From positions 1 to 64,000 of the forward strand of contig JAULBX010003555.1 in the NCBI GenBank assembly GCA_032358255.1: a stretch of DNA of 64,000 nucleotides, given 5' to 3'. This DNA is from Heterotrichella gracilis. Taxonomy: Eukaryota; Sar; Xanthophyceae; Tribonematales; Xanthonemataceae. The position numbers and the translations under genes were made by a program. Positions 10,801-37,700 of this stretch are shown piece after piece (the first letter of the stretch is position 1; the number at the start of each line of letters is the position of its first letter). Under the pieces are notes generated by a model, which did no database searches, was not told where the DNA came from, and saw nothing but the letters and a program-made list of their open reading frames with translations.

Positions 10801-13800
10801 CGGGGCTGGCGGTGCCGGGGGGGCTGTTCATGCCGTCCATCCTGGTAAGTTTGTGCTTTCCTTTTAGTTGCATGTGTTGCATGCCAGAAGAATGCCAACA
10901 TCAGCGAGAGTATTAGAGGGCTGTAAATGCGCCAAGATGGAATTAAACAGTCTGTTGTGTACCTGCTGCTCATGGTGCTGGTGTCGGGCCTGGCATTACT
11001 GGGGGGTTGGCGTAGGTAACCATGTTCATGCCATCCATCCTGGTGAGTTGTGCCGAGTCTAGTTAGTTGTACCCGTTTTGATACAGCCGTATCAGTAAAC
11101 GCATGTTGTAAGCAGCTTCCTAAAGGCCATATGCATGCAATGTATCGATGCCATCTATCCTTGTCCATTGATGCATACAAAGATGTTTTGGCCTGCATGC
11201 CCACCTAGGTAGCTCTTTCCGACGTCATTTTTTCTGTTGGCAGGTTGGCGCCTCGTTTGGTGGGTGGTATGGCACAATCATGAAGGACAACCTGCCACTG
11301 GATTGGAACATCCAGCCAGGAATGTATGCAGTGATTGCAGCCACAGGTGAGCTAAACCGTTAACCTTCATGCAATCATCGTCACTACAGGCGAGCATCTT
11401 GCACTGAATTGGTCTTGCATGCTTTTATATGGCAGCTTGTGGTGTCTGGCTGCTGGCAGCAAATAGGTCGATGCGTGCAAGCCAAATTGCCAATTATTCC
11501 TGCACGGCAATGCATGCCATGGGTACATGCCTTCAATAGGATGCCCAAAATGCACCCCCAGTCCATCGGCTGGCATGCATCCCTTGCACCAAATACTGTG
11601 CATTGCATGCCAATGTGCCCAGGATGGGGACTCAACAGCTCGCCTAGTGCCAGCAGGGTCCACAGGTACATGCACGAGCCATCACCATGTGCACCCATCA
11701 TAAAGAGATACCCAGCACCCATTTTTGCTGCAGGTGTGCTGGGCGGGGTGTTCCGGTCTTCTGTCTCCCTGGTGGTCATTGTGGTGGAGGGCACGCGGGG
11801 GATCGACTTTCTGCTGGGGATTGTGATTGCCGTGGTTGCCGCCAACTGGATTGCGCACCATGTGCACAAGGAGGGGATATATGAGAGCGAGCTCGAGAGG
11901 GATGGGGACGTGTTCTACCTGCGGCCAGAGCCGCCACACGCGCTGCGCTCCAAATCAGCTGCCACGGTAAGGGGGTAGCCGTGCTGGAGGCTGACACTAC
12001 AGCCGTCAGTGCCGTTGAACTGTATGTGGGAACGCGCACTCACACAAGTCACGGCAATGCATATAATTAGTCATACGATCACTTGGCCATTGTATATTGC
12101 AAAGAACCTGGGGGTTGCTCAGGAGTCTGCACTGGTGGATCACAGCCAGCCAGCGTCAGCCCTTATACCAGCCGCCCTTGCACAGTCTGCGCCATCCAGC
12201 GCCACCTCTGGCATCCACATTCCTATTCAAATCACCCACCCCACTCCACCCCACAGGTCATGGCCACCCATCCCTTGGGCTTCCGGGAAGTTGAGACTGT
12301 GCAGCGGGTGGTGGAGGTGCTGCGCCACACCACGCACAACGGCTTCCCTGTGCTTGCCTCTGAGACAGTGGCGCCTGGCGATGAGACTGGGCGCCTAGAG
12401 GGGATCATACTGCGCCACCAACTGCTGGTGCTGCTCAAGGTGGGTGGACTAGGGTGTATATCTGGTAGAGTTCTAACTTTCGGTGCAAATTTTAGCATAT
12501 GAGAGGTCGATTTAGCAGGAATCAGTATTCAGGTTACTTATGGCCGACAGGGCTTCCCTGTGCACCTGGTGATGTGACTGGGCGCCTAGAGGGGATCATC
12601 CTGCGCCATCAGCTGCTGGTTCTGCTCGAGGTTTAGGGTTTAGGGTTTAGGGTGAAACCTTAATCCTGGGTTTCTGCTCGAGGTGACTGTCTTAGGCAGT
12701 GAATTAGAACTATGTCCAGGGGTGCGATAGGACTTTATACCTATATCAGGCGTGCAATAAGAATTTCCACCTTTACCTAACGTGGGTCTGCAGCCCATCC
12801 CCCCATTTTCTGCCCCCCTGCCCTTGCAGCCCATCCCCATCCAACGCTGATCCTCTGCAATTGTGTATGTGCAGCAATCTGCCTTCTGTGATGAGTGTGG
12901 CCGCTACCTGAATCAGGGGGGGGTTCCGCTGGGGGCGTATGAGGCAGGGCTGGAGCGTGACATGCGCATGTTCTACAATGTGCCTCGCCCACACAAGTGA
13001 GTGCCCGCCCTTTACCCACACCTAATGCACGCCTTGCCACAGTCAATTTGCGCCTTGTCGCTCAGTCAATGCACCCCTTGGTGCACACATGCTGCATGCC
13101 ACATTAGGCACCTGGAGCTGAATCTTCACCATAACACAAACGCCATGACACACAATTATGGTATGCTGGGCCATTGGTCCTTGCATGCAACAACCATGTA
13201 CTGCATGGGGTTCAAGCTCGATTGCTGCCCTTACCTCAACTTCCAGAGTGCTCACCAGGACCTGGCTGATCACATCAACAATAACAATGACACCACAATC
13301 GCCACCACCCATATGCCATACTGATTCTGGTCCTTGCATTGTCTGCCGCATCCTCAGGCGCCATCAGCTCACCCGCCCAGACTACCTGGACGAGATAGGC
13401 CTGCACACCACCTGCTGTGCAGCTGGCCACGGCCTGGAGGCACTGGTGGCAACTGGGGCTCAGGGCGCCTCGCGCACCCCCGGCATTGGCCTGGATACCG
13501 AGCACCTGTACGTCAACCTGCGGCCCTTCATGAACTGCGCGCCGCTGAGCGTGCGCAGTGAGACCAGCGCAATCAAGGTGCGCATGCGGGGTGGGGCGTA
13601 TGCAGCGTTGGAACGGGGTGAGGGTTGGGACGGAACGGCATTTAAAGAAATAAGCTGAAATTGATTTGAGATGGTATCTTATCCCTGTCAGATCAATCAT
13701 CATTTAATGTTAAGTTGCTTACATACTTTCCAGCAGTACAGCCAGATTAGCTCATTCCTGTAAGCCTAATAGTAATTTGAAAAACCCGTCTCCTTCGCTT

Positions 13801-34736: not shown

Positions 34737-37700
34737 TCAATAGTCTACTGTGGCTAGCTTGGGCAGCTCTGGTGCAGCTGCACTACCCGCCACTGTTGCC
34801 ATCAGCATGGCCGCCGCCCGCTCGGCCACCATGACAGTGGGGGCTGCTGTCTGACCACCTGCAAATACCAGATCCCAATGTCAGAAACCTGTGTGCCCAC
34901 TAAATAATGGAACAGCGTAAACTTGCGTCCATAGCAACCGGGGTGTCCACCGCAGGGTAAACAGCGCCAAAGCACACCAGGTTGGGGTCGGCTATGGCAA
35001 GACTGACTTCAACCTGAGTACATGTCTGGGAGGCACACCTGCTGAGCCAAATAAGCACTAGCCGCCAGGTGGACCGGCGCATATAAACCATCGCACACAC
35101 AGAAACAAAACCACACAACTGGCCACAGGTCACAACACTGCCTGAGACATTGGAATTTAGGCACCTGCACCAGTGGCCTGATCCCATGCAACTGAGACTT
35201 GAAAATAATGTTGCAGGTATCCAGTGACCCCCTTCTGGCCCTCCAACCCTTCTCCCCTGCCCACCTGGAATGATCGGGAACACCGACGCGTCCACCACCC
35301 TCAGCCCCTCCACGCCATGCACCCTGAGGTGTGCATCCACCACGTCGCCCTGGGCAGGGTCCGGGCCCATCTTGCAGGAGCCCACGATTGCGTTGCTGGT
35401 GTGCAGGTACTTGCGCACGTAGCCCTCAATCTCCTCGTCACTCTGACAAGGGGGAGACGGGAGGTTAATCGAGCGGCGGGGTACACATGCAGGCTGCAGT
35501 GTGTGCGTGCGTACATGGGGAAGCTGACCTAAACCCTTGACTAGACCCAAACCTTGATCCCGTGTATGTACACAGAACAAGGAAGCCCTAGTAATCCCTG
35601 GTTGGGATATGCGATCACTGTTCTTATCGCCCCACATGGGCGCCATCATCATGATACAAATATCCTCCATTTCCGCCCACTGCTTATTTCTGGCTTTAAT
35701 CATGATGCTACCACTTGTCATAGTGCATGGGCAAGCATGAGCTGATTTCCATGTATTCCCTCCCCACCTGCAGCTCCGCTCCCGGGTAATACTCATCCTG
35801 CAGGTACTCTTGGAAGGCATCGGTGGCCGCCAGCTGGCGACTGTACTTCAGACCGTACCTGCAGGGGTGAGGGGGGGACGTGGGGACTTTAACCTTAGGA
35901 AAAAGTTGATTGTTCCGGGCAGGATGCTAGCAACAGTTCACTACTGGGGAACGCAAGCAAGCTTCTGCAAGCAACGTGCTTCAAGCCTCGAGGTGTGCGA
36001 AGCATACTTTAGGAATCCCGATAGGGTTGTGCATACACAAGCAGATGTTTGCAATTGGTCTGCAATTAGGATATTATACAACCTGATAGCCATGGCGATT
36101 AACTAGAGGCAAAATAGGGGGGATGTTTACAGAGGACTGGACAGCGACATGCATTTCCTAGCCATATCAGTAGGGTAAGCCGTTGCGTACATTAGGGTTT
36201 TGAGGTCTGCGCCCTCCTTATCGGTGAGGTAGCCCGTCTGCACATCTGGCTCCTCAAAGGGGTCGGATGACTTGAGGGACACGGTTCCGCGAGACTTGGC
36301 ACGGCAGGCAATGATCTGATACCATAGGAGATGGTTGGCAAAGGGGTGGAGAGGGTGTGCAGCGGAGGAGGCAAAGCCCAAAGGGTGCATGGAGAAGGAT
36401 GTAAGCACGGCGCGGTCTAACTACACTTCCTTCATGGCTGTGCACATGGCCATGTTGACCAATGACAGTACCGTGTTAAACATATAAGTTTCACTCCGTG
36501 ACCATGATACGAGAAACACAGCATTACCGAGTAAAATGTATAATACAGCCCAGGCTTTGTTCAGCTATGGTATATTCCGAGTTTGAAAGCGCTTTTCTAA
36601 GTATTCCCCACGCACTACTGTAGCTGCTCCTACCTGGAAAGTGATTCCTGAGGGCCATGAAAGGCCCTTGGCCTGCCTGCGGGCATTCTCAGTCCATGAA
36701 CCCGCGTGATCGGGGTCCAGGGCCAGTCCAGGGGTGAATCGTAGCTGAAGGTCAGGCAGGGAGGAACCTGCAAGGGATTTGGTGGTGTTGGGCGCAAGGG
36801 AGCGGGAGGAGCTGGTAGGCACGATATAGGCCGCGCAGTAACGCCTAGCATTGCGACAAGGCACAGCACGGCAAGAGAGCATATGGCAATGCATACAACG
36901 GCACCACCACCAGGGGAAGTGGTGCCATGGATTGAGGTGCCTTGTGCCGATAATCCCACTGCTCATTGGAAATTAATGGATGATTTCACCCGGACAATGG
37001 AAGCATGCTGATGGGTGGAAATGCAGTGGCTCCTGTATCAGTGATATGCCAATCACACCAGGCTGCCCCTCTGACCCCTTCTCTCACCGGTGCTGGACAG
37101 CAACGTGGCCTGACGCCTAAACCCTAAAACCCGTACCGGTGCTGGACACGAAAGCACCCCTGTCGCATGCAGTTGTAGTCAGTGGCCCCCTGCGGCGCAG
37201 CAGGTAGTTGAGCACCGCACTCAGGCGGATGCTGCCATTGGGCTTGTACACGTGGTCCGTCACGCTCTTGCCCACGTGCTGCTTCTTGAGGGTGAAGGCG
37301 GTCAGGCAGGCGGGGTGGTCCTGCGGGGGGCAGGTCAGAAGCGGCGCGTTGGCACGGGAACCGACAAGGGTGTGACACCACCCCATTAGCGCCAGGTGTG
37401 ATGAGTCGGATGACTCACACCCGAGCCCCATATCATACAAGAAGTTTAGGCAAAATAGTCAACTTCATAGGAAGGTAATTCAGTCAAAATCCTCTAGTCA
37501 ATTACTTTATAAGAAGTTAATTTGCTTAGATTCATTTCCTATAAAATCAAGGTAAAGGTCTAAGAATATATTTAGAATGTTTTCGTTGCACCCTGGCACC
37601 CCTTCACCCCTGGCTCACCTGCAGGTTCTCCCCTACCCCGGGGAGGTCCGACACTGGCGTGACCCCCGCATCCCGCAGGCGCGCCTCAGGCCCAATGCCA

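Follow-up and report, generated by a model that had tools for sequence, protein, structure and literature searches.

Two short telomere-like inserts, each enclosed by an exact direct repeat of 13-14 bp, were found in a 64,000-nucleotide stretch of DNA from the alga Heterotrichella gracilis (contig JAULBX010003555.1, positions 1 to 64,000; this whole stretch is called the window below). One insert lies in an intron of a chloride channel (CLC) gene, and the other lies on a splice donor of a fatty acid photodecarboxylase (FAP) gene. Both inserts are probably short interstitial telomeric sequences that remained after staggered double-strand breaks had been repaired by end joining. In the CLC gene on the plus strand, the repeat TTCTGCTCGAGGT occurs at 12620-12632 and again at 12672-12684, with a period of 52, no mismatches, and 39 bp between the two copies. 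The spacer (12633-12671) is TTAGGGTTTAGGGTTTAGGGTGAAACCTTAATCCTGGGT, in which the first 20 bp are telomeric units and the remaining 19 bp are other filler. There are three perfect TTTAGGG units here, and the telomeric stretch GGTTTAGGGTTTAGGGTTTAGGGT (12630-12653) has a telomere score of 48, the highest in the window. In the FAP gene on the minus strand, the repeat TGTCCAGCACCGGT occurs at 37148-37135 and 37099-37086, with a period of 49, no mismatches, and 35 bp between the copies. The spacer (37100-37134) is ACGGGTTTTAGGGTTTAGGCGTCAGGCCACGTTGC, about two telomeric units plus filler, which can be divided into ACGGG, TTTTAGGGTTTAGG, and CGTCAGGCCACGTTGC; its telomeric stretch GGTTTTAGGGTTTAGG (37131-37116) has a telomere score of 27. 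The sequence-only reading of this DNA had described TTTAGGG-type inserts between two 13-14 bp copies with periods of 52 and 49, and the sequence agrees with that description without a mismatch.

The FAP exons were joined by hand in consistent phase, giving 12 exons and 614 residues. The model matches the solved fatty acid photodecarboxylase 5ncc (E = 6.6e-218), and the exon 7-8 junction is aligned without a gap. Exon 7 (37137-37320, minus strand) ends with CAGCACCG/GTACGG, where the slash marks the exon boundary, and the predicted join with this new donor runs from ...CAGCACCG to GTTCCTCC. In the gene sense, the first of the two duplicated copies (37135-37148) takes in the end of exon 7 at 37137 and would also hold the GT of the donor in use. 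The second copy (37086-37099) has the donor context CCG/GTGAGA, which would now be intronic, since the open reading frame that passes through the insert (37117-37458) ends in a stop codon. The first donor, CCG/GTACGG, gives a protein that fits the homologue 5ncc. When FAP was left out of the training, the first donor scored 5.12 and the second 4.62, while the other 23 donors scored 4.0-8.14. Based on the homology to 5ncc, the read-through stop, and the donor scores, it is very likely that the insert supplied the donor context now in use, GTACGG. The earlier proposal that the insert made a new donor and left the old one in the intron is thus supported by the protein homology and by the read-through stop. 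The protein and the exon end would have stayed the same, and the intron would have become 49 bp longer. A splice-site shift that alters the protein is not supported, as the exon end of FAP is unchanged. As for relatives of FAP in viral contigs, eight pattern matches were obtained and none was confirmed.

The CLC gene was modelled by hand over 14 exons and 873 residues, and two further CLC exons come from the gene finder only. The model matches 7jm6 (chloride channel protein, E = 2e-89) and 7bxu (H(+)/Cl(-) exchange transporter 7). In the in-frame spliced model, the true exon 11 (12257-12439, plus strand) ends with CTCAAG/GTGGGT, and its junction at 12439 is gap-free against both 7jm6 and 7bxu. 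The insert starts 181 bp past this exon end, within the intron (12440-12874), where a tandem copy of the exon 11 tail (12562-12632, plus strand) comes to its end. This tail copy is 88.7% identical to 12371-12441 over 71 bp, with a local score of 53 vs a shuffle mean of 10.4. It was revealed that two differences from the exon sequence TGCTGCTCAAGGT are common to both 13-bp repeats. Thus, the exon and its copy had diverged before the insertion. Judged from these alignments, the CLC event is an intronic insertion whose exon-end look was inherited from the tail copy, and it should have had no coding effect. The gene finder placed an 18-bp exon (12551-12568) at the start of the copy, but this would add six residues that are absent from the solved CLC proteins, and it was rejected. 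An exon-end event in CLC was also rejected, because of the spliced model, the alignments to 7jm6 and 7bxu, and the two shared substitutions. The duplicated sequence had been read in both genes as an exon tail plus a donor; this holds for FAP, whose exon 7 ends at 37137 with a gap-free junction, but not for CLC, whose true exon ends at 12439. Of the two exon-end events that had been proposed, FAP is therefore the only one. An exon-tail copy in an intron can mimic an exon end and double the apparent pattern. Neither event looks like a new intron that split an exon; the CLC event took place within an existing intron, and the FAP event borders an intron on either side of which the exons are joined as they are in 5ncc.

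How might such inserts be formed? The duplications point to a staggered break with single-stranded ends of 13-14 nt. The 3′ end, ...GGT, would then have been extended by TTTAGGG units, probably by telomerase, as indicated by the polarity in both genes and by the register in CLC. Captured telomeric DNA or reverse-transcribed telomeric RNA may have been the source instead, and these are indistinguishable here from telomerase. Subsequently, 16-19 nt of other filler would have been added, both overhangs filled in, and the ends joined. Fill-in and joining of the overhangs would place the overhang sequence on both sides of the insert. In FAP, the overhang would have spanned the end of exon 7 and the donor GT, and the insertion may have been tolerated since the exon end survived in the first copy and a usable donor, CCG/GTACGG, came with the insert. 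In CLC, the insertion would have struck the intronic copy of the exon tail. Several features of the sequence agree with this scheme. In both genes, the G strand begins at the upstream copy or close to it (chance 1 in 4), as is expected if that 3′ end was extended. The duplicated GGT of CLC is in register with the telomeric units. Moreover, an exact target duplication together with added filler, the insertion-site change of end joining, is present at both loci.

Are these duplications and telomere-like stretches more frequent than chance allows? I counted exact direct repeats of at least 13 bp that lie at distances of 20-100 bp and have spacers of 10 or longer, using 30 order-3 Markov sequences as the null. 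The window has seven such repeats vs a null mean of 0.17 (maximum 1). Judged by spacer similarity, those at 43194 and 45977 are tandem repeats, while in the remaining five (12620, 12789, 16522, 28391, and 37086) the filler is unlike the flanking DNA. The filler is telomeric in two of these five. The other three have no telomere-like stretch; they are 13-18 bp exact duplications enclosing non-telomeric filler at 12789-12838, 16522-16580, and 28391-28449. These results suggest that such filler-containing duplications are a general kind of repair scar in this DNA. Telomere-like stretches were compared with Markov sequences of orders 1, 3, and 5 (40 sequences each). At a score of at least 20, there are 14 stretches in the window vs null means of 1.05, 1.4, and 2.9, respectively, and at a score of at least 27 there are six vs 0, 0, and 0.05. 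None of the 120 null sequences has a stretch with a score of at least 30. Thus, short arrays of telomeric units are present at internal sites beyond chance. Nineteen other heptamer classes of equal composition have 2-8 stretches vs 14 for TTTAGGG, and at a score of at least 27 just one of 250 other heptamer classes (sampled from 620) equals the TTTAGGG count. Two of the 14 telomere-like stretches lie inside the five filler-type duplications (P = 0.003 for random placement); this value is a description more than an independent test, because both loci prompted the question.

Several observations weigh against an origin by telomeric repair. In FAP, five bases, ACGGG, keep the GGT apart from the clean units, and for this reason the register is not established there. 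A source of the non-telomeric filler was not found in the window, where the longest matches are 8 and 9 bases vs means of 9.6 and 9.4 for shuffled filler. At a score of at least 20, nine of the 250 sampled heptamer classes have as many stretches as TTTAGGG; judged from these class counts, strong stretches are clearly in excess, and the excess of weak ones is less specific. A clear flanking duplication is present at only two of the 14 telomere-like stretches, and no convincing duplication was found to flank any of the other 12 (best p 0.064). On the whole, the proposal of break repair with telomere-like filler, first made by the sequence-only reading, is well supported by the exact duplications, the polarity of the G strand, the GGT register in CLC, and the excess of telomere-like stretches.

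Some further telomere-like stretches of the window were noted. Closely spaced stretches in opposite orientation occur at 50490-50524 and 38158-38204 (for example, TTTAGGGTTTTGCAACTTCCAAAACCCTAA on the minus strand), although they are statistically weak. When the CLC insert is counted, three of the 14 stretches are in a head-to-head arrangement at p 0.05 or less, which is too weak to use. Near a modelled gene for a BTB-domain protein, there is a tandem duplication with a period of about 241 (28999-29454); its two copies contain the telomere-like runs GGGTTTTGGGTTTTGGGTTT and GGGGTTAGGGTTTA, one each.

The 13-14 bp duplications would also suit target-primed insertion, and the telomeric part is located towards one end of the insert in both genes. 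Such a structure could result from a much-truncated retroelement (LINE- or Penelope-like) with a telomere-like 3′ tail, in which case the flanks would be ordinary target site duplications. However, outside their telomeric units the two inserts do not resemble each other, whichever orientation is compared (p 0.99 and 0.54), and neither filler has a better match elsewhere in the window than shuffled filler has. No self-match joins the two sites within the window, and no shared element-derived sequence was found beside the tail in this window. The three further filler duplications, which have no telomere-like stretch, also speak against a retroelement, and I regard this origin as unlikely. It is still harder to believe that local slippage or tandem duplication produced telomere-like DNA by chance. 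Tandem duplications do occur nearby, but both spacers are unlike either flank (empirical p 0.34 to 0.88), and the CLC array has a telomere score of 48, while no null sequence out of 120 reaches 30. Such a chance origin is highly improbable, and end-joining repair with telomeric filler is preferred to both of these explanations.

Is the repair directed to exon ends? It might be speculated that the process is aimed at exon-intron junctions, for example with AG/GT ends priming telomerase, and that it shifts donors and lengthens introns throughout the genome. The last two bases of the FAP duplication are the donor GT, and those of the CLC duplication are the GT of the exon-tail copy. Both therefore end in GGT, which is a plausible primer for telomerase. 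On the other hand, the CLC case is intronic and is later than the divergence of the exon and its copy. A second scan that tolerates mismatches and whose list does not include the tandem repeats at 43194 and 45977 gave seven spaced duplications vs 0.4 expected (15 null sequences). With gene models that are rough outside CLC and FAP, one of the seven (FAP) meets a modelled splice junction and another one lies within a predicted exon. Among the tolerated 14-mer positions in the CLC and FAP spans, 3.6% span a donor and 3.6% span an acceptor, about 7% together. From this share, the chance of at least one junction among five events is calculated to be about 0.3. A single exon-intron case, which would arise by chance about that often, does not amount to enrichment, and a preference for exon ends, as had been suggested, is not shown. 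Targeting of junctions is accordingly very unlikely in my view. A bolder version also seems quite unlikely, in which telomerase extension combined with CST/Pol alpha fill-in would often repair breaks with 3′ overhangs, and NG/GT donors would be primed, hit, and rebuilt more than other sites. If this were true, telomere repair would steadily drive the growth of introns and the turnover of donors in this alga.

The tail copy that received the CLC insert is not the only one of its kind. In three of the 26 introns tested in FAP and CLC, namely CLC introns 8, 11, and 14, the tail of the exon before the intron is present as a copy. These copies (10950-11053, 12562-12632, and 14135-14255) lie 151-191 bp downstream of the exon tail and have scores of 54, 53, and 50 vs shuffle means of 10 to 12. 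It should be noted that three of the CLC intron borders, the downstream one of intron 14 and the two of intron 15, were set by the gene finder. Among these 26 introns, all other exon tails score 15.5 or less and copies of the following exon's head score 16 or less; none of the 11 FAP introns carries an exon-tail copy of like strength. The alignment of copy 1 extends 26 bp into the intron head. Because of this extension and of the downstream placement at 151-191 bp, the copies seem to have arisen by tandem duplication of DNA across the donor. The same extension led to the rejection of reverse-transcribed mRNA as their source. For copies 2 and 3, visual inspection indicates only a weak resemblance to the intron head, which is absent from the alignment of copy 2. 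Copy 1 has indels with four synonymous and three replacement changes, and copy 3 has indels with six synonymous and 12 replacement changes. Thus, copies 1 and 3 were rejected as working alternative exons. Copy 2 has no indel over the 69 bp aligned, and six of its eight changes are synonymous, which is at odds with simple decay. Copy 2 may therefore be or have been used as coding DNA. It is odd that one gene has three exon-tail copies.

Besides FAP and CLC, the window has genes for a chlorophyll-binding protein, a Ribosomal L28 family protein, and a Parkin co-regulated protein. Together with FAP, the first two of these point to an algal host. I take the L28 protein to be of the plastid type, and the Parkin co-regulated protein presumably indicates a flagellated lineage. 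No RNA family at the gathering score and no tRNA was found in the window. Just past the end of FAP, a segment of about 127 bp (34376-34500) is 88% identical to 41856-41981, the modelled last exon of a gene for a G-patch protein, and is apparently a displaced copy of that exon. An intron of the modelled chlorophyll-binding protein gene has a 45-bp direct repeat (6290-6334 and 6442-6486; 89% identical, 152 bp apart). A pair of dispersed repeats (60075-60812 and 63140-63940) is 79-84% identical, and a gene nearby has an F-box-like match below the Pfam cut-off.

It is already known that telomeric sequences are joined at breaks in mammals, including cases with target duplications. In rodents and primates, target duplications were reported at 4.6% and 16% of the informative telomeric-insert loci and additions at 17% and 16%, respectively, and nucleotides at the break site are in register above chance (PMC2246262). 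In the horse, a plain duplication was reported at three of 66 loci (4.5%) and attributed to staggered breaks (PMC7215372). The present inserts resemble those of rodents, primates, and the horse in being short internal telomeric arrays with random addition or target duplication and, in the case of CLC, in having in-register nucleotides at the break. In contrast to the mammalian inserts described in those passages, they occur in an alga, have TTTAGGG units, combine duplication and addition at both loci, and in one case span a splice donor. According to the passages of PMC7215372, human exons are free of such interstitial telomeric cases, and whether splicing is affected was left for later tests. 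Among the literature matches listed, none describes a telomeric insert at a splice site in its title or in the opening of its abstract. TTTAGGG has been described as the ancestral telomere unit of green algae, and end joining is said to shape both the gain and the loss of introns in them (PMC8226300). The unit of the present host may differ from TTTAGGG. Interstitial telomeric repeats have also been suggested for Chlamydomonas reinhardtii and tentatively ascribed to end-to-end fusion of chromosomes (PMC6549138). These are likewise internal telomeric repeats, but the passages on them mention neither flanking duplications nor splice sites.

The duplication step also has counterparts. CST-guided fill-in of 3′ overhangs by Pol alpha-primase is reported to produce small tandem duplications (PMC8355091). 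There, as here, the overhang is duplicated at a staggered break, but those overhangs are down to 43 bp vs 13-14 in this study, and telomeric filler is unmentioned in the passages concerned. Newly gained introns of Daphnia have internal direct repeats, and staggered breaks were proposed both to leave such repeats and to lengthen these introns (PMC4202315). Direct repeats near intron borders have been described more generally, with breaks as the proposed source (PMC11782384). The repeats in those two reports, as far as their passages go, are associated with new introns or with the borders of introns, whereas telomeric filler lies between the repeats described here. The word intron is absent from the main text of PMC9498494. 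What appears to be new is the occurrence of duplication-flanked examples in an alga, one of which would have rebuilt a splice donor. Duplication-flanked telomere patches of the mammalian type are now seen in an alga, and the FAP gene may provide a natural case of a patch on a splice donor that was tolerated since the patch and the duplicated flank rebuilt the donor.

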